From Comamonas terrae (GTDB lineage: Bacteria > Pseudomonadota > Gammaproteobacteria > Burkholderiales > Burkholderiaceae_C): DNA of 64,000 bases. Positions 54,422 through 64,000 of this stretch are shown piece after piece. Location: positions 186,001-250,000 of the forward strand of contig NZ_BCNT01000007.1 in assembly GCF_001544075.1 (NCBI RefSeq), given 5' to 3'. Below the pieces are notes generated by a model that saw only the letters and a list, made by a program, of their open reading frames with translations, searched no databases and had not been told where the DNA came from. Every line of letters begins with the position of its first letter. The stretch's first letter is position 1. The position numbers and the translations under genes are program-made.

Positions 54422-56233
54422 TCAGACATAGTCCTTGTACTTCTCGAGGAAGCGCACGGGCTTGCTCAGCGCATCGCGGCGGAAGGGATCGCCGAGTTCG
54501 CGGGTGCACATGATCTCGATGACGCAGGTCTTCTTCTGGTTCATCTGCAGGTCGATGGCCTTTTGCAGCGCGGGGCCCACATCCTCGATGCGGTCCACGA
54601 TGATGGCCTCGGCGCCCATGGCCTGGGCGATGCCGGCGAAACTTTCGCTTTCGAGTTCGCCCGCGACGAAGCGGCGGTTGTAGAAGTCCACCTGGTTCTT
54701 CTTCTCGGCGCCCCACTGGCGGTTGTGGAAGACCACGGCCGTGACGGGAATGTCGTGGCGCACGGCCGTCATGATTTCCATCATGCTCATGCCCCAGGCA
54801 CCGTCGCCCGCATAGGCGATGGCCGGGCGGTCCGGCGCGGCGCACTTGGCGCCGATGATGGTGGGCAGCGCATAGCCGCAGTTGCCGAAGCTCATGGGTG
54901 CGAAGAAGCTGCGCGGCTCGTCGAAGCGCAGATAGCTGTTGGCCACCGAGTTGATGTTGCCGATGTCGGTGGACACCATGACGCGCGCCGGCATGGCCTT
55001 TTCCAGCTCGCGCAGCACCTGGCGCGGATGCAGGTAGCTGCCGCCCGTGGGCGTCTTCTCGCCCTTGGCTTCCTCGATCATGTCCAGGCTGTAGGGATCG
55101 CGCTCGTGGGTCCAGCCGTCGAGTTCCTTTTCCCAGGCATGCTTTTCGGTGGCGATGATGTCGGCGCGCGCGGCCTTGGTGGCGTCGCTGTCCAGCGTCT
55201 CGGTCGCCAGGCGCCGCACGAGTTCGGCGGCCACGGCCTTGGCGTCGCCGTGGATGCCCACGGCGATCTTCTTGACCAGGCCCAGATTGGTGTGGTCGGC
55301 CTCGACCTGGATGATCTTGGCAGTCTTGGGCCAGTAGTCCATGCCGTGCTGGGGCAGGGTGCCGAAGGGACCCATGCGCGACCCCAGCGCAATCACCACA
55401 TCGGCCTGGGCGATGAGCTTCATGGCCGCCTTGGAGCCCTGGTAGCCCAGCGGGCCGGCCCACAGCGGATGCCTGGCGGGGAAGGCGTCGTTGCGCAGAT
55501 AGCCGGTGGCCACGGGGGCGCCCAGGCGCTCGGCCAGTTGCTTGGCTTCTTCCACCGCATCGCCCATGACCACGCCGCCGCCGGCCAGGATCACCGGGAA
55601 CCTGGCGGTCTTGAGCAGCTCGACGGCCGCCTGCAGGCTTTGCTCGCCGCCGTGGCCGCGGTCCACGCGCATGGGCCTGGGAATCTCGCACTCGATCTCG
55701 CCGTAGAAATAGTCGCGCGGAATGTTCAGCTGCGTGGGGCCCATCTCGGACATGGCGCGGTCGAAGCAGCGGCCCGTGAATTCCGCCATGCGCTTGGGAT
55801 TGCAGACATGGCCCTGGTACTTGGTGAACTCCTGGAACATGGGCAGCTGGTTGGCCTCCTGGAAGCCCCCCAGGCCCATGCCCATGGTGCCGGTCTCGGG
55901 CGTCACGATCACCACCGGGCTGTGCGCCCAGTAGGCGGCGGCGATGCCGGTGACGCAGTTGGAGATGCCGGGGCCGTTCTGGCCGATGACCACCCCGTGG
56001 CGGCCCGAGACGCGGGCATAGCCGTCGGCCATGTGGGCCGCGCCCTGTTCGTGCACCACGGGAATCAGGCGGATGCCGGCCGGCGCAAAAATGTCCATGG
56101 CGTCCATGAAGGCCGAGCCCATGATGCCGAACATCTCGGTCACGCCGTTGGCGACGCAGGTTTCCACGAATGCTTCCGACGGCGTCATCTTCTGCACGCC
56201 CTGCACCACCTTACGATTGTCTGCTGTAGTCAT
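54422..56233 (-). CDS. xsc: Sulfoacetaldehyde acetyltransferase
   Basis: Xsc is a thiamine-diphosphate enzyme that splits sulfoacetaldehyde with phosphate into acetyl phosphate and sulfite, the desulfonation step in taurine use. The 603-residue protein has the N-terminal ThDP Glu region VVHEQGAAHMADGYAR and GQNGPGISNCVTGIAAAYW, a long match to the Xsc type (MGLGGFQEANQLPMFQEFTKYQ), and the ThDP/Mg motif YAGDGAWGMSMMEIMTAVRHDIPVTAVVFHNRQWGAEKKNQ. The ATG at 56233 follows a perfect AAGGAG. It is divergent from an IclR regulator and is followed by pta and yeiH. Confidence 0.96.
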   Translation of the reverse strand: MTTADNRKVVQGVQKMTPSEAFVETCVANGVTEMFGIMGSAFMDAMDIFAPAGIRLIPVVHEQGAAHMADGYARVSGRHGVVIGQNGPGISNCVTGIAAAYWAHSPVVIVTPETGTMGMGLGGFQEANQLPMFQEFTKYQGHVCNPKRMAEFTGRCFDRAMSEMGPTQLNIPRDYFYGEIECEIPRPMRVDRGHGGEQSLQAAVELLKTARFPVILAGGGVVMGDAVEEAKQLAERLGAPVATGYLRNDAFPARHPLWAGPLGYQGSKAAMKLIAQADVVIALGSRMGPFGTLPQHGMDYWPKTAKIIQVEADHTNLGLVKKIAVGIHGDAKAVAAELVRRLATETLDSDATKAARADIIATEKHAWEKELDGWTHERDPYSLDMIEEAKGEKTPTGGSYLHPRQVLRELEKAMPARVMVSTDIGNINSVANSYLRFDEPRSFFAPMSFGNCGYALPTIIGAKCAAPDRPAIAYAGDGAWGMSMMEIMTAVRHDIPVTAVVFHNRQWGAEKKNQVDFYNRRFVAGELESESFAGIAQAMGAEAIIVDRIEDVGPALQKAIDLQMNQKKTCVIEIMCTRELGDPFRRDALSKPVRFLEKYKDYV

Positions 56234-56258: not shown

Positions 56259-56346
56259 GGAACTTTAAGTTCCGAAAAAAGAAATCACGACGCAAGTCTA
56301 GGCACTTCCGCAGCCTTGTGTCAAACAAATTTCTTTTTTTCGGAAC
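56259..56346. promoter_or_regulatory. GGAAC-based inverted repeats in the xsc-iclR control region
   Basis: GGAACTTTAAGTTCC (56259-56273) is a palindrome with 7-bp arms. It overlaps a second, wider inverted repeat: GTTCCGAAAAAAGAAAT (56269-56285) against ATTTCTTTTTTTCGGAAC (56329-56346), differing by one inserted T. All three GGAAC half-sites lie in the AT-rich 140-bp gap between the starts. They suit binding by the IclR protein and control of both genes. Confidence 0.6.
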
Positions 56347-56373
56347 AAATTGACTCAAAAAACGAAAGAAAAT

Positions 56374-57298: not shown

Positions 57299-57345
57299 TT
57301 GATGTGTGCCAGTTTTATTTTGCATAGCCAAGGAGAGTTGAAGTG

Positions 57346-58323
57346 ATGCAAGAACCGACGCGCATGCTGAGCGTGCGCGATGCCTTCGGCATCGACACCG
57401 ACCTCGAGGTGCCGGCCTTTGCCGAGCGCTGCGAGCATGTGCCGGCCATCGACGCGGCCTACCGCTTCAATCCGCAGGCCACGCTGGCCATTCTTGCGGG
57501 CTTTGCGCACAACCGGCGCGTGGTCGTCCAGGGGCTGCACGGAACCGGCAAATCCACGCATATCGAGCAGGTGGCCGCGCGGCTGAACTGGCCGTGCGTG
57601 CGCGTCAACCTGGACGGCCACATCAGCCGGCTCGATCTCGTGGGCAAGGACGCCATCGTGCTGGAAGAAGGCAAGCAGGTGACCCGCTTTCAGGAGGGCA
57701 TATTGCCCTGGGCGCTGCAGCGGCCCGTGGCCCTGGTCTTCGATGAATACGACGCGGGCCGGCCCGATGTGATGTTCGTCATCCAGCGCGTGCTCGAGCG
57801 CGACGGCAGCTTCACGCTGCTGGACCAGAAGAAGGTGCTGCAGCCGCATGCGCACTTCCGGCTGTTTGCCACCATGAACACCCTGGGCCAGGGCAACCTC
57901 TCGGGCCTGTACCACGGCACGCAGCTGCTCAACCACGCCCAGCTCGACCGCTGGAACCTGGTCACCAGCCTGGACTACCTGCCGCCGGCCGAGGAGGCCG
58001 CCATCGTGCTGGCGCGCGTGCCGCAGCTGGCCACGCCCCCGGGGCGCGAGCAGGTGGCGGCCATGGTGGCGCTGGCCGCACTCACGCGCAAAGGCTTTGC
58101 CGTGGGCGATCTGTCGCTGCTGATGTCGCCGCGCACCGTCATCACCTGGGCCGAGAACACGCAGATCTTCCACGACCTGCGCCTGGCTTTCGAGCTGTCC
58201 TTCCTGAACAAGTGCGAGCCTGCGGAGCGCGCCATCGTGGCCGAGTATTTCCAGCGCTGCTTCGGCAGCGAGCTGGCGCGGCATGGCGAAGCTGCGGATG
58301 CCGGCCTGCTGCAGGCGCACTGA
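57346..58323 (+). CDS. CobS-like AAA+ ATPase
   Basis: A 325-residue AAA+ protein of the CobS/MoxR group. Walker A is GLHGTGKSTHIEQ (about 63), Walker B is ALVFDEYDAGRPDV, followed by sensor-type LFATMNTLGQGNLSGLYHGTQ, and the N-terminal CobS-like VPAFAERCEHVPAIDAAYRF. CobS energises cobalt insertion into hydrogenobyrinate diamide with CobT and CobN. No cobN or other corrin genes are nearby, so it may instead be an activase for another metal or cofactor enzyme. GTG 57343 precedes the chosen ATG 57346; AAGGAG lies at 57330-57335. The VWA partner begins 1 bp after the stop. Confidence 0.85.
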   Translation: MQEPTRMLSVRDAFGIDTDLEVPAFAERCEHVPAIDAAYRFNPQATLAILAGFAHNRRVVVQGLHGTGKSTHIEQVAARLNWPCVRVNLDGHISRLDLVGKDAIVLEEGKQVTRFQEGILPWALQRPVALVFDEYDAGRPDVMFVIQRVLERDGSFTLLDQKKVLQPHAHFRLFATMNTLGQGNLSGLYHGTQLLNHAQLDRWNLVTSLDYLPPAEEAAIVLARVPQLATPPGREQVAAMVALAALTRKGFAVGDLSLLMSPRTVITWAENTQIFHDLRLAFELSFLNKCEPAERAIVAEYFQRCFGSELARHGEAADAGLLQAH

Positions 58324-58324
58324 C

Positions 58325-60022
58325 ATGCAGGCACCTGCAGCCACGCAGGCCTCGCTGGCCCAGATGGAATCCTGGAGCGGGGCGCTGCTGCGCGCCGTCA
58401 CGGGCGATGCCTCGCTGCAGTGGAGCGGCCAGACCCTGTACCGGGGAACCGACCCCGTGGCCCTGCCCGCCGCGCATCACAGCGATGTGCCCGCGCAACT
58501 GGCCGACCAGCGCGGCCTGCTCGACGGCGCGGGCCTGCGCCTGCGGTTCAGCGATGCGGCGCTGCACCGGGTCCATCTGCCCGCAGACCCCGTGGAGCGG
58601 CTGGTGTTCGAGCTGCTCGAGCAATTGCGCGTGGAAAGCCTGGTGCCCGCGTCCTGGCCCGGCGCGCGCGCCAATCTGCAGGCGCGCTTCGTGCACTGGT
58701 GCCAGTCCTTTGCCGATTCGGGCCTGACGGAAAGCAGCCTGGGCATTCTGCTGTTCACCGTGGCGCTCACGGCCTGGAGCCGGCTGACCGGGCATGAGCC
58801 GCCGCATGCGCTGTCCGACCTGGCCGAGGCCACGCGCGCCGCGCTGTCGGCCGAGATCGGCGGCCAGTGGCCGCTGCTGCGCCGCCACCGGGCCGACCAG
58901 CAGGCCTTCATCGCACCCGCGCTGGCCGTGAGCCGCTGGGTGGGCCGGGCCGTGCGCGCCGCGCAGCAAGAGGCGCCGCGCGGGACAGGCCAGCCGCGGC
59001 GGCGCAGCGGCTTTGCGCTGCCCCTGCATTTCGAATCCCAGTCGCCCGAGGCTGCGCCCGTGGCCCATACCGGCGACAGCCGGGCCTGGGCCAGCACGGC
59101 GCAAGGCTACCGGGTGTTCACGCGCGCCTACGACCGCGAGGCCCAGGCGGCCGAACTGATCCGCGCTGCGCAGCTGGCCGGCTTGCGCGCGCAGATGGAC
59201 GAGGAACTGGCGCGCAGCGGCCTGCACGCGGGGCGGCTGGCGCGATGGCTGCAGCAGCGCCTGGCCAGGCCGCGGCGCGAAGGCTGGCATTTCGGGCTGG
59301 AGGACGGGCATCTGGACGGCAGCCGGCTGGCGCAGCTGGTCGGCGATCCGCAGCAGCGCGCCGTCTTCAAGGACGAGGCGCAGCGCCCGGTCAGCGATGC
59401 CGCGGTGGGCATTCTCATGGACTGCTCGGGGTCGATGAAGGCCCATGCTCGCCAGCTCTCGCTGCTCGTCGACGTGCTGGGCCGGGCCCTGTCCATGGCC
59501 GGCGTGCCGGTGGATGTGCTGGGCTTTTCCACGCTGGCCTGGAACGGCGGGCGGGCGCGGCGCGACTGGCAGCGCGCGGGCCGACCCGAATTCCCGGGGC
59601 GGCTCAACGAGCGGCTGCACATCGTCTTCAAGGACGCGGCCAGGCCCTGGCGCCACGGCCGCCATGGCATTGCGGCGCTGCGCAAGCCCGATCTGTTCCG
59701 CGAGGGCATGGACGGCGAGGCCGTGGAATGGGCCTGCGGGCGGCTGCTGCAGCGGCCGCAGGCGCGGCGCATCCTGCTGGTCATCTCCGACGGCTGTCCC
59801 ATGGACACGGCCACGCACCAGAGCAACGACGCCCACTACCTGGACCAGCACCTGCGCCAGGTCGTGGCGCGCCACGAGCGCGCGGGCGATGTGCGGATCT
59901 GCGCACTGGGCGTGGGACTGGACCTGGGCGTGTTCTACCGCCGGCGCCTGGCCGTCGATCTCGATGCGCGCATCGACGAGGCGCTGCTGCAATCGGTGGC
60001 CGAACTGATCTGCCGGCCCTGA
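58325..60022 (+). CDS. CobT-like VWA-domain protein
   Basis: A 565-residue partner of the upstream AAA+ protein. The N-terminal half resembles CobT (HLPADPVERLVFELLEQLRVESLVPASW), the middle has a conserved YRVFTRAYDREAQAAEL, and the C-terminal VWA domain (about 355-565) carries the MIDAS motif GILMDCSGSMKAH, then RRILLVISDGCPMDTAT and ALGVGLDLGVFY. It lacks the long acidic insert of true CobT. The ATG at 58325 begins 1 bp after the AAA+ stop, so the two are translated together. Target unknown; its place beside iclR-xsc hints at a sulfonate-linked function. Confidence 0.8.
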   Translation: MQAPAATQASLAQMESWSGALLRAVTGDASLQWSGQTLYRGTDPVALPAAHHSDVPAQLADQRGLLDGAGLRLRFSDAALHRVHLPADPVERLVFELLEQLRVESLVPASWPGARANLQARFVHWCQSFADSGLTESSLGILLFTVALTAWSRLTGHEPPHALSDLAEATRAALSAEIGGQWPLLRRHRADQQAFIAPALAVSRWVGRAVRAAQQEAPRGTGQPRRRSGFALPLHFESQSPEAAPVAHTGDSRAWASTAQGYRVFTRAYDREAQAAELIRAAQLAGLRAQMDEELARSGLHAGRLARWLQQRLARPRREGWHFGLEDGHLDGSRLAQLVGDPQQRAVFKDEAQRPVSDAAVGILMDCSGSMKAHARQLSLLVDVLGRALSMAGVPVDVLGFSTLAWNGGRARRDWQRAGRPEFPGRLNERLHIVFKDAARPWRHGRHGIAALRKPDLFREGMDGEAVEWACGRLLQRPQARRILLVISDGCPMDTATHQSNDAHYLDQHLRQVVARHERAGDVRICALGVGLDLGVFYRRRLAVDLDARIDEALLQSVAELICRP

Positions 60023-60215: not shown

Positions 60216-61637
60216 TCAGAGCTTTTCGTCGCGCAGGTAGTACCAGTGGTACAGAAAGCGCTGGCCCAGGCGGCGAAACGGTGCGAAGGCCGGCGAGCGC
60301 ACGGTGTTGAACAGATTGGGGTACTCGAGCTCGGAGTTGTAGATGGGCAGCTCGAATGCCTTGCTGCGGCGCCCCGCGATGCGCTCGGCCATGCGCCGGC
60401 CCGCATGGGCCGAGAACGACACGCCGTTGCCGCCGTAGCCCACGGCGTAGAAGATGCTCTGCTGCGGATCGGGCTGGAACACGCGCGGCATCATGTCGTG
60501 GCTCACGTCCACCCAGCCCCACCAGGAATAGTCCACCTCGATGCCCTTGAGCGCCGGGAACTTGCGGTGCAGGCCGTCCACCAGCTTGGCCATGTGCACG
60601 GGGTTGGGCGCGTCGGCGCCGGTGACGGCGCTGCGGCTGCCGATCTGCACGCGGTTGTCGGGCAGGCGGCGGTAGTAAAAGCGCAGCGTGCGCGTGTCGG
60701 TGATGACCTGGGTGGTCTTGAAGCCCGTGGCCTCCAGCTCCTGCTCGGTCAGCGGCCGCGTGACCAGCGAGTTCGAGAGAATCGGCATGATCTTGGAGCG
60801 CAGGCTGCCGTGCAGGCCGTTGCTGGTGTAGCCGCCCGTGGCAAAGCCCACGGCGCGGGCGCGCACCGTGCCGCCCGGCGTGCGCAGGTGGTGCACGCCG
60901 TTGCGCGTCTCCACGCCGAGCACGGGGCTGGCCGGATGCACCTTCACGCCCAGCTGGCGGGCCTTGCGCAGGTAGCCGAAGGCCAGCTTGAGCGGATGCA
61001 CGCCGATGCCGTCGGGCTCGTGCATGGCGCCGTGGCTGTCGGCATCGTTCACATAGTCGCGGCGCACCTCCTCGGGGCTGAGCATGCGCGCGTCGTAGCC
61101 GAAAACCTCGCGCATGATGCGGGTCTCGTTGCGCAGGAAGTCCAGCTTCTTGTCGCGGTGGGCGATGTAGAGATGCCCGCCGGGCTGGGGCTCGCATTCG
61201 GGGAACTCCGCCACCAGGTCCTTGAAGGTCTGGAAGCCCTCGCGGATCTCGGCGTCGAGCCTGAGGGCCACGTCCTTGCCCCAGCGCTCTATCCATTGCG
61301 AGCGGTACAGGCGGCCGCTGGCGTTCTGGCCCTGGCCTCCGTTGCGGCTGGTGCAGCCCCAGGCGGTCTGGTTGGCGTCCAGCACCACGGCGCGTATGCC
61401 GTGCTCGCGCGCCAGGAAGAGGGCGGTGGACAGGCCCGTGAAGCCCGATCCCACGATGGCCACGTCCGCATCGATGTCGCCGCACAGCGGGCCGTCGTCC
61501 TCGGGCGGGCGTCCGGCCGTGCCCACCCAGTAGGTGGGGGCGTAGCCCGTGCCGTGGCCCGGCGTGGCGGCGACCAGCGGGTCGTACTGCGGGTCGTAGG
61601 GGGTGAGGTAGCTCGGGCTGATGTCCTCGGCTTTCAT
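60216..61637 (-). CDS. tauY: FAD-dependent oxidoreductase, candidate taurine dehydrogenase large subunit
   Basis: A 473-residue flavoprotein of the DadA/DAO type. The FAD fold is VAIVGSGFTGLSTALFLAREHGI (about 60-82), followed by ANQTAWGCTSRNGGQGQNASG and the C-terminal FYAVGYGGNGVSFSAHAGRRMAE. It would oxidise an amine to an aldehyde or imine and pass electrons on. The pattern also fits gamma-glutamylputrescine oxidase (PuuB/OrdL type). I favour TauY because of the nearby xsc cluster, the divergent SnoaL-like partner and the TauR-like boxes between. The ATG at 61637 has AGGAGA at 61645-61651. Confidence 0.65.
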   Translation of the reverse strand: MKAEDISPSYLTPYDPQYDPLVAATPGHGTGYAPTYWVGTAGRPPEDDGPLCGDIDADVAIVGSGFTGLSTALFLAREHGIRAVVLDANQTAWGCTSRNGGQGQNASGRLYRSQWIERWGKDVALRLDAEIREGFQTFKDLVAEFPECEPQPGGHLYIAHRDKKLDFLRNETRIMREVFGYDARMLSPEEVRRDYVNDADSHGAMHEPDGIGVHPLKLAFGYLRKARQLGVKVHPASPVLGVETRNGVHHLRTPGGTVRARAVGFATGGYTSNGLHGSLRSKIMPILSNSLVTRPLTEQELEATGFKTTQVITDTRTLRFYYRRLPDNRVQIGSRSAVTGADAPNPVHMAKLVDGLHRKFPALKGIEVDYSWWGWVDVSHDMMPRVFQPDPQQSIFYAVGYGGNGVSFSAHAGRRMAERIAGRRSKAFELPIYNSELEYPNLFNTVRSPAFAPFRRLGQRFLYHWYYLRDEKL

Positions 61638-61769
61638 GCGTATGTCTCCTGTGGCCGCGCCGTGGCGGCGCCGGTGTTCTTGATGCAAGGGCAATCGCAT
61701 CAGCGCGGCCCTCAAGCACGGTCCGGCTGGTGGATGGGAGACAGCTTATCCAGCGTCCGGGCCCGGCCG

Positions 61770-61802
61770 TTAGCGCCAGCGGCAAGGTTTCGATAGAGCC
61801 AG
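61770..61802 (-). promoter_or_regulatory. TauR-like direct-repeat pair directed at the flavoprotein gene
   Basis: On the minus strand CTGGCTCTAT (61802-61793) and CTGGCGCTAA (61779-61770) are 23 bp apart start to start. They lie about 133-165 nt upstream of the flavoprotein ATG. The layout mirrors the plus-strand pair 20 bp away. Confidence 0.65.
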
Positions 61803-61821
61803 AAACCGGCGCCAGGCTGCG

Positions 61822-61854
61822 CTGGACTTAACGATTGGGTCCTGCTGGCTCTAA
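61822..61854 (+). promoter_or_regulatory. TauR-like direct-repeat pair directed at the first SnoaL-like gene
   Basis: CTGGACTTAA (61822-61831) and CTGGCTCTAA (61845-61854) are 23 bp apart and about 107-139 nt before the gene start. CTGGACTTAA equals the consensus CTGGACYTAA that I recall for the MocR-family taurine regulator TauR of Rhodobacter. No MocR gene is present in the window. Confidence 0.7.
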
Positions 61855-61961
61855 CCGGAATGCAGGAGGCTGCCTACCATGGCTTCAGCACCTTGAGAGC
61901 CTTGCGCGTTCGCGCGCGATGCCGCACGGGTGCCGCCACCATTCAACGACAAGGAGACCGC

Positions 61962-62360
61962 ATGACCCGCACCACCACCCTGCCCGACGCCCGCTTTCTG
62001 GCGGAATTCGCCGCCGCCTGGAACCGCCACGACATCGAGGCCCTGATGGACTTCATGGCCGAGGACTGCGAGTTCCACGCCGTGGGCGGCCCCGATTTGA
62101 TGGGGCGCAGCTTCATCGGCCGCGAGGCGGTGCGCGAGGGCTTCCAGATGGCCTGGCAGGCCTTTCCCGATGCGGCCTGGGTCGATGGCGAGCATTTCGT
62201 GCACGGCGACCGCGGCGTGTCGGAAAGCACGTTCCAGGGCACCAAGGCCGACGGGCTGCGCGTGCAGGCCCGCATGGTGGATGTGTTCACTTTCCGCGAC
62301 GGCAAGATCGCCGTGAAGAACGCCTACCGCAAGGACCGTCCGCCCGTGCCGGCCGCCTGA
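61962..62360 (+). CDS. tauX: SnoaL/NTF2-fold protein, candidate taurine dehydrogenase small subunit (copy 1)
   Basis: A 132-residue NTF2-fold protein with the SnoaL-type start FLAEFAAAWNRHDIEALMDFMAEDCEFHAVGGP, then RSFIGREAVREGFQMAWQAFPDAAW and VDVFTFRDGKIAVKNAYRKDRPP. Stand-alone members have varied roles. Here its divergent neighbour is a flavoprotein and TauR-like boxes precede both, fitting the small TauX subunit of taurine dehydrogenase; I recall TauX as a small NTF2-like protein, but this needs checking. The ATG at 61962 follows AAGGAG. A near-identical copy lies 720 bp downstream. Confidence 0.6.
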   Translation: MTRTTTLPDARFLAEFAAAWNRHDIEALMDFMAEDCEFHAVGGPDLMGRSFIGREAVREGFQMAWQAFPDAAWVDGEHFVHGDRGVSESTFQGTKADGLRVQARMVDVFTFRDGKIAVKNAYRKDRPPVPAA

Positions 62361-62411
62361 AGCGCCAGCGCACCCGCAGCCGTCCTGGCGGCTGCCAATA
62401 CCAGCTTTGCC

Positions 62412-62444
62412 GGCCGGGGCTTCATGCCCCGGCCGATGTTTTTT
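62412..62444 (+). terminator. Rho-independent terminator after the first SnoaL-like gene
   Basis: GGCCGGGGC (62412-62420) and GCCCCGGCC (62426-62434) form a perfect 9-bp stem with a TTCAT loop, followed by GATG and six T residues. It separates copy 1 from the control region of copy 2. Confidence 0.92.
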
Positions 62445-62475
62445 CGGGGTCCACAATGGTATGGAATCCGCTTTG

Positions 62476-62508
62476 CTGGAACCAGCCGCCGGGTTTTGAT
62501 GGAACCAG
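62476..62508 (-). promoter_or_regulatory. TauR-like direct-repeat pair, minus orientation, second array
   Basis: On the minus strand CTGGTTCCAT (62508-62499) and CTGGTTCCAG (62485-62476) are 23 bp apart. No gene starts on this strand here: the upstream neighbour is convergent and ends at 62360. The pair therefore looks like a leftover of a copied divergent control region. Confidence 0.5.
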
Positions 62509-62535
62509 CCGCTGCATGGCGCCAGACAGGGGCAT

Positions 62536-62568
62536 CTGGTCCTAACGATAGGCCGCAACTGGTTCTAA
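62536..62568 (+). promoter_or_regulatory. TauR-like direct-repeat pair directed at the second SnoaL-like gene
   Basis: CTGGTCCTAA (62536-62545) and CTGGTTCTAA (62559-62568) are again 23 bp apart and about 101-133 nt before the start at 62670. The geometry matches that of copy 1, although the surrounding bases differ. Confidence 0.7.
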
Positions 62569-62669
62569 TCATTCGCTTCCTCGCTACCTACCATGGCTCA
62601 TCGACAACGTGATGACAGGGTGCAGCGCACAGCACCAAGCACCCGGGCAAAACCATGACAGGAGACGAT

Positions 62670-63077
62670 ATGACCAGCACTGCTTCCCCGCCCGCCACCC
62701 CGCCCGACGCCCGCTTTCTGGCGGAATTCGCCGCCGCCTGGAACCGCCACGACATCGAGGCCCTGATGGACTTCATGGCCGAGGACTGCGAGTTCCACGC
62801 CGTGGCCGGCCCCGACCTGATGGGGCGCAGCTTCATCGGCCGCGAGGCGGTGCGCGAGGGCTTCCAGATGGCCTGGCAGGCCTTTCCCGATGCGGCCTGG
62901 GTCGATGGCGAGCATTTCGTGCACGGCGACCGCGGCGTGTCGGAAAGCACGTTCCAGGGCACCAAGGCCGACGGGCTGCGCGTGCAGGCCCGCATGGTGG
63001 ATGTGTTCACTTTCCGCGACGGCAAGATCGCCGTGAAGAACGCCTACCGCAAGGACCGTCCGCCCGTGGCCGCCTGA
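62670..63077 (+). CDS. SnoaL/NTF2-fold protein, candidate taurine dehydrogenase small subunit (copy 2)
   Basis: A 135-residue paralogue of the gene at 61962. From residue 18 to the end it differs by a single residue (Gly to Ala after HAV) and one missing proline-alanine step near the C-terminus; only the first 16 residues differ. The shared DNA block, 62702-63068 against 61982-62348, has three mismatches in 367 bp. The ATG at 62670 follows AGGAGA; an ATG at 62655 is in frame but less well placed. It lies 119 bp before the permease gene and may be co-transcribed with it. Confidence 0.75.
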   Translation: MTSTASPPATPPDARFLAEFAAAWNRHDIEALMDFMAEDCEFHAVAGPDLMGRSFIGREAVREGFQMAWQAFPDAAWVDGEHFVHGDRGVSESTFQGTKADGLRVQARMVDVFTFRDGKIAVKNAYRKDRPPVAA

Positions 63078-63196: not shown

Positions 63197-64000
63197 ATGA
63201 TTGGAAATCAGCACGCTCCCTCGCCGGAGCTCTCGCACGGCCTGAAACAGCGCCACATGACCATGATCGCCCTTGGCGGCGTGATCGGCGCAGGCCTTTT
63301 CGTCGGCAGCGGCGTCGTTATCAAGTCCGCCGGCCCGGCGGCCATTCTTTCCTTCCTGATCACCGGCCTGCTCGTGGTGCTGGTGATGCGCATGCTGGGC
63401 GAGCTGGCCTGCGCCATGCCCGGCGGAGGCTCGTTCTACGAGTATGCCCGCGAGGCCTGGCGCGACCGCCCGGCGATCGGCCAGCTGGCGGGCTTTCTCA
63501 CCGGCTGGATGTACTGGTACTTCTGGGTCATCGTCGTGGCCATCGAAGCCGTGGCCGGCGCCGACCTGGTGCGCTACTGGCTGCCCGACGTGCCCAGCTG
63601 GAGCATCAGCCTGGTGCTGCTGGTCCTGCTGACGCTGACCAATCTGATCTCGGTGAAGTCCTTTGGCGAGTTCGAGTTCTGGTTCGCCTCCATCAAGGTG
63701 GCGGCCATCGTGGTCTTCCTGTTCGTGGCCGGCGTCTATGTGCTGGGCCTGACGCCGGGCTCCCAGGGCATGCATGTGGCCAACCTCACGGTCAACGGCG
63801 GCTTCATGCCCAACGGCTTCGTGCCCGTGCTGACCGGCGCGGTGGCGGCGACGGGCTTTTACTTCGGCGCCGAGATCGTGACCATTGCCGCGGCGGAAAC
63901 CGCCGAGCCCCAGAAGGCCGTGGCCAAGGCCACGAACTCCGTGATCACGCGGGTCATGGTGTTCTACGTGGGCTCGCTGCTGCTGGTGGCCTGCCTGGTG
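63197..64000 (+). CDS. APC-family amino acid permease (C-terminus cut by window edge)
   Basis: The first 268 residues of an amino acid-polyamine-organocation permease of the GabP/AAT type. It begins LKQRHMTMIALGGVIGAGLFVGSGVVIKSAGPAA, the substrate-binding first helix, followed by MRMLGELACAMPGGGSFYEYAREA and FGAEIVTIAAAETAEPQKAV. About seven helices are visible; the full protein should be 450-480 residues. AGGAGA lies 7 nt before the ATG. Its place after the SnoaL-like copy 2 suggests uptake of taurine or another omega-amino acid. Confidence 0.9.
   Translation, partial: MIGNQHAPSPELSHGLKQRHMTMIALGGVIGAGLFVGSGVVIKSAGPAAILSFLITGLLVVLVMRMLGELACAMPGGGSFYEYAREAWRDRPAIGQLAGFLTGWMYWYFWVIVVAIEAVAGADLVRYWLPDVPSWSISLVLLVLLTLTNLISVKSFGEFEFWFASIKVAAIVVFLFVAGVYVLGLTPGSQGMHVANLTVNGGFMPNGFVPVLTGAVAATGFYFGAEIVTIAAAETAEPQKAVAKATNSVITRVMVFYVGSLLLVACLV

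Follow-up and report, generated by a model that had tools for sequence, protein, structure and literature searches.

Paired direct repeats at 61,770-62,568 of the window (the whole 64,000-nt stretch analysed, G000:C7:186001-250000) are best read as predicted operators of the taurine regulator TauR before taurine-degradation genes, the regulator itself being encoded 0.7 kb past the window end. We put the probability of this sequence-based reading at about 0.94. The computed evidence comprises the sites, their spacing and conservation, the orthology of TauR, TauX and TauY, and an aligned -10 element. The system is known in kind: a TauR regulon, in a family where TauR regulons had already been predicted. 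It provides a clean, testable TauR operator set for Comamonas or a near relative.

Box Pairs and Their Match to the TauR Consensus

The sequence-only reading had described four pairs of decamers, and the coordinates, strands and 23-bp spacing of all eight units were correct on re-checking. Pairs were scored against CTGGNNYTAA repeated at 23 bp (a 33-bp pattern); in minus pairs the right-hand unit was taken as box 1. Three pairs were strong (61822+, 62536+ and 61770-; Table 1), whereas 62476- was weak by consensus. This fourth pair is not significant on the consensus alone, because 11 gap-23 pairs with at most 4 mismatches occur in the 64-kb window, 5 of them in the region under study. As a sequence match, the predicted operators are direct repeats of the CTGGACYTAA type. 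This consensus had been linked to TauR in the earlier reading and is indeed in print: Rhodobacter capsulatus TauR binds direct repeats CTGGACYTAA, according to the part of PMC5320631 covered, which cites Wiethaus 2008. The plus pairs had been placed about 100-140 nt before each SnoaL-like gene; 107 nt separate box 2 from the tauX1 ATG (61962), and 101 nt separate it from the likely tauX2 ATG (62670).

Table 1. Predicted operators, -10-like elements and genes of the locus (window positions unless a contig is given).
Feature	Position	Strand	Remarks
xsc	54422-56233		1021 bits, cut-off 676.4; adjoins iclR gene
tauY, predicted FAD-dependent taurine dehydrogenase large subunit	60216..61637	-	DAO domain; 63% identity to S. 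meliloti 1021 protein
-10-like TAAGCT of tauY	61743..61748	-	Begins 31 bp after box 2 start; TATGCT in several relatives
TauR box pair CTGGCTCTAT-n13-CTGGCGCTAA	61770..61802	-	Predicted operator of divergent tauY (O1, minus side); 1 mismatch; matrix 31.7, rank 3
TauR box pair CTGGACTTAA-n13-CTGGCTCTAA	61822..61854	+	Predicted operator of tauX1 (O1, plus side); 0 mismatches; matrix 38.6, rank 2
-10-like TACCAT	61875..61880	+	O1; begins 30 bp after box 2 start; TA...T partly conserved
tauX1, predicted SnoaL/NTF2-like taurine dehydrogenase small subunit	61962..62360	+	SnoaL_2; 51% identity to S. meliloti 1021
Weak box pair CTGGTTCCAT-n13-CTGGTTCCAG	62476..62508	-	Faces tauX1 end; 4 mismatches; matrix 16.9, rank 4
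TauR box pair CTGGTCCTAA-n13-CTGGTTCTAA	62536..62568	+	Predicted operator of tauX2 (O2, plus side); 0 mismatches; matrix 47.6, rank 1
-10-like TACCAT	62589..62594	+	O2; begins 30 bp after box 2 start
tauX2, second tauX copy	62670..63077	+	Alternative upstream start 62655
GABA-permease-like amino acid permease	63197..64000, on to C7:250636 outside window	+	PF00324 397.4 bits (whole gene)
tauR (MocR-type gene)	G000:C7:250676-252241	-	521 aa; GntR + aminotransferase domains

Genome-Wide and Matrix Scans

The genome (4,716,713 bases, 40 contigs) was scanned with the full 33-bp pattern in place of a one-box-plus-half pattern, which had 2531 matches at 3 mismatches against 1763 in the reversed control and was dropped. 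The genome-wide search for 23-bp pairs, proposed in the sequence-only reading, returned three strong pairs with at most 1 mismatch, all at the tau genes of the present locus. At up to 3 mismatches, 35 places were found versus 34 with the reversed control, so weaker consensus matches are uninformative.

A 45-column matrix was trained on 34 non-redundant sites of relatives (from 57 pairs), with the window left out. Its consensus, (C)TGGACCTAACGATT-n7-ACTGGTNCTAC, is longer than the decamer noted earlier. Over both window strands the matrix ranked the four pairs first to fourth, and the fifth-best hit, scoring 3.0, began at box 2 of 62536+. In a single run on one strand of random first-order Markov sequence (4.7 Mb), the top score was 15.25 and one position reached 12.

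A TauR Orthologue Past the Window End

A MocR/TauR gene had been expected just outside the window. Such a gene is present as the next one after the permease, convergent to it, and its product carries both PF00392 and PF00155 above cut-off, the domain combination of TauR. The TauR reference was taken from Sinorhizobium meliloti strain 1021, as the tauR region of strain Ak57 has no annotated gene; there (L165 2060-3534, CP090105.1) the region is split over two separate open frames. S. meliloti TauR is an experimentally supported activator, and induction is absent upon tauR deletion, according to the portions of PMC4254191 covered.

Searched against S. meliloti 1021 pSymB, the MocR-type protein matched best at 1049346-1050779 (E 7.5e-121; next 2e-28). 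In the reverse direction, S. meliloti TauR returned the same gene among seven MocR-length proteins of the genome (E 4e-131; next 5e-27), and it was also the best among all 22 GntR loci. In a 23-row tree, the protein grouped with its Sinorhizobium and Paracoccus counterparts (clade support 100/100), and the six other MocR proteins of the genome fell outside. A long-branched pair, L051 and a second S. meliloti MocR, is joined to this TauR clade, perhaps falsely. Both the reciprocal best match and the tree placement support the gene as behaving like a TauR orthologue.

It is very improbable that the sites are read by a different MocR/GntR regulator (a GabR or PdxR paralogue, for example) and not by the neighbouring gene product. 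Paralogues are not scarce, with 20 GntR domains over cut-off in the genome, seven of them in proteins treated as MocR. The MocR-type protein passes the NCBIfam PdxR model NF052282 (363.5 bits, cut-off 320), no TauR model was found among the NCBIfam matches listed (25 of 73), and the neighbouring permease is GABA-permease-like. Identities as PdxR and as GabR were considered on these grounds, but orthology and context favour TauR over both. Against a different regulator also stand the published TauR consensus and the distribution of sites in loci chosen by this regulator, described below.

Conservation of the Sites Among Relatives

Contigs of relatives were scanned with the regulator; 486 loci were found, and the best 80 of 486 were kept and all examined (1.43 Mb). 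In these 80 loci, 57 pairs with at most 2 mismatches occurred at gap 23, compared with 23 pairs altogether, at most 4 per gap, summed over the 33 remaining gaps of 12 to 45. A site scoring at least 12 was present anywhere in the locus in 77/80 (misses L087, L159 and L162). Matching the matrix is built in for the 41 loci from which training sites were drawn; among the 39 loci without training sites, 36 still had a site of this score. The spacing peak at 23 only and the retention of the sites in relatives support the earlier claim that the repeated geometry marks a real regulon element.

Upstream sites were counted in the same best 80 of 486 loci as same-strand sites scoring at least 12 within 400 bp upstream of a tblastn match. 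They preceded tauX in 49/51 matches, tauY in 16/44 and xsc in 1/30, and none was found for tauR (0/80), the permease (0/40) or iclR (0/61). Many tauY genes need no site of their own because they follow tauX. Some further sites were directed away from tauR, and in L085 a site preceded three genes read as tauABC from translations alone. With an adjoining TauR orthologue, a published consensus and sites before nearly every tauX, the interpretation of the pairs as MocR/TauR sites, already offered from the sequence, is supported. Within the genus, 12/12 stretches (from 17 tauX-bearing genomes besides the present one) had tauX-side and tauY-side pairs scoring at least 8; seven of the 12 very likely repeat training loci. 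Sites similar to the tauY-side pair 61770- were also present in relatives.

In the present genome, the gap between xsc and iclR, the stretch immediately before the permease and the region upstream of tauR all lacked a TauR site. The absence before tauR and xsc counts against the TauR reading, though such absence is common in the 80 loci too. The idea that an xsc without a TauR site is a peculiarity of this strain was withdrawn, this arrangement being usual in the loci examined. In the xsc/iclR gap an inverted repeat is visible by eye (window 56316-56348); it is imperfect, has TTGT/ACAA ends and might be an IclR-family operator.

It is barely credible that the pairs are chance, or leftovers of the tauX duplication without a regulatory role. 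The two regions are paralogous, with an operator span 69% identical (59/85) between O1 and O2, but the same sites occur in relatives with a single tauX, the spacing peaks at one value, and all three strong pairs of the genome lie at this locus.

Promoter Geometry

Promoter columns were derived from 74 non-redundant sites (of 136; 82 loci). Columns after box 2 were near-uninformative until 54-60, except position 50. At 54-60, a partial -10 signal appeared (A55 0.70, T59 0.64, A56 0.62, T54 0.46). The -10-like hexamer begins 20 bp past box 2, or 21 bp at tauY-side sites, so the end of box 2 would coincide in part with a -35 element placed at normal spacing. Such a geometry fits an activator bound beside polymerase, and activation may be presumed from it. 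The comparison establishes both the 23-bp spacing and the -10 position over many betaproteobacterial loci.

Target Genes

The SnoaL-like genes are predicted to be tauX and the FAD gene tauY by synteny and by identity to the S. meliloti 1021 proteins (51% and 63%). We take tauX to encode the taurine dehydrogenase small subunit, with which synteny agrees. An NTF2/SnoaL small-subunit gene lies adjacent to an FAD large-subunit gene, beside tau genes or xsc. In S. meliloti 1021 the FAD gene sits between the NTF2 gene and xsc, and the order in strain Ak57 is tauA, ATP-binding gene, permease gene, NTF2 gene, FAD gene, xsc, YeiH-family gene, pta. In Paracoccus aminovorans the MocR gene is divergent from NTF2-FAD-xsc, and the NTF2 gene of Marinovum is annotated as putative taurine dehydrogenase. 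TauXY is accordingly named here as a predicted taurine dehydrogenase, SnoaL being a fold label only; two SnoaL-like genes thereby gain names as its putative subunits. Judged from the synteny and identity of tauX and tauY, the predicted targets belong to taurine uptake and dissimilation genes. The covered part of PMC4254191 gives tauY as the taurine dehydrogenase large subunit; PMC10356861 contains no occurrence of TauXY terms.

CobS- and CobT-like genes lie between iclR and tauY (window 57343-60022), and in L085, L086 and L167, too, genes resembling CobS/CobT or annotated as such lie next to tau genes.

The part of the permease inside the window scored 325.8 bits with TIGR01773, under the cut-off of 678.1. 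The 62536+ pair may also serve as its operator, in a presumed tauX2-permease operon. No close orthologue of the putative TauA (L085) or TRAP-type (L086) binding proteins was found in the genome (best matches, chosen by E-value, 27% and 32% identity); the names TauA and TRAP-type are readings from loci of congeners. The permease, presumably under TauR control, is thus a candidate taurine importer, a more distant transporter being possible, and the strain may import taurine through this permease alone. C. testosteroni KF-1 is reported as a taurine user in the part of PMC3746432 covered.

Duplication of tauX and the Fourth Pair

The tauX gene is doubled, and each copy has its own predicted operator. 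The cores of tauX1 and tauX2 are 98.9% identical in DNA (362/366), and the stretch from operator to ATG is 64% identical (60/94). Coding DNA is thus near-identical between the copies (61962-62360 and 62670-63077) and the flanks are not, which suggests gene conversion. In the tauX DNA tree, the two copies joined at 100/99; the tree was otherwise largely unresolved (2/12 inner branches starred). A tauX match was present in 18/53 genomes of the genus, with two copies in three.

Box 1 of 62476- (CTGGTTCCATCAAAAC) belongs to the tauY-side type (several Comamonas have CTGGCTCCATCAAAAC), box 2 is poor, and the pair has no divergent gene. No -10 lies at the conserved place; a TACCAT is present, 6 bp too near. 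In the other two-tauX congeners, G037 and G047, the permease-side tauX is preceded by a single pair, and no pair like 62476- was found (best other scores -6.9 and -0.4).

All four pairs might nevertheless be functional, with 62476- driving antisense transcription into tauX1 or helping two TauR dimers associate at O2. The pair outscores the random 4.7-Mb maximum (16.9 versus 15.25), its box 1 has tauY-side character, and four-box motifs of the form <- <- -> -> are given for 39 MocR regulons in the covered part of PMC5320631. Its degenerate second box, the misplaced TACCAT, the missing divergent gene and the lack of a counterpart in both congeners make this unlikely. Still more doubtful is a reading in which the doubling of operator and tauX produced two shared divergent regions forming a TauR array, with 62476-62508 remaining in use; antisense transcripts entering tauX1 under TauR control, or a bridge between O1 and O2, would then tune the TauX/TauY ratio to taurine.

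The 62476- pair is probably a relic, most likely a decayed tauY-type half left by duplication of O1 together with tauX, and, within the genomes examined, restricted to this lineage. The simplest account would be an older duplication of O1 and tauX, then decay of the tauY half, and later gene conversion homogenising the coding part.

Proposed Mechanism

A TauR head-to-tail dimer would bind a pair of direct boxes spaced 23 bp, on approximately one helix face. With box 2 overlapping the -35 region, TauR would recruit RNA polymerase in the presence of taurine (and PLP). From O1 (61770-61854), two back-to-back pairs would direct transcription of tauY leftward and tauX1 rightward, and O2 (62536-62568) would serve tauX2 and probably the permease. 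TauXY would convert taurine to sulfoacetaldehyde, which Xsc would then split.

Comparison with Known TauR Systems

The locus shares with the R. capsulatus and S. meliloti TauR regulons an orthologous MocR activator, direct repeats of the CTGGACYTAA type and taurine-gene targets. It differs from them in its 23-bp spacing with back-to-back pairs, and no close tauABC orthologue was found in the genome. Alphaproteobacterial loci fit less well: units of S. meliloti 1021 are spaced 22 and 23 bp and carry 3 mismatches, the Paracoccus locus has one pair, at 22 bp, and the Marinovum locus has no pair with at most 3 mismatches at gaps 22-24, in contrast to 23 bp here. The tauR-tauA region of S. meliloti 1021 (L178 7815-7869) has three box-like units, 22 and 23 bp apart, rather than a single pair.

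As in the Comamonadaceae TauR regulons of Suvorova and Rodionov (2016, PMC5320631), where GabP is listed, a GabP-type permease is among the predicted targets; the doubled tauX and doubled operator are not mentioned in the main-text parts of that source covered. The four-box <- <- -> -> MocR motifs in table 2 of the same paper, as far as covered, likewise have two pairs in opposite directions, whereas the arrangement here fits two divergent promoters sharing a region, with 52 bp between the O1 pair starts.
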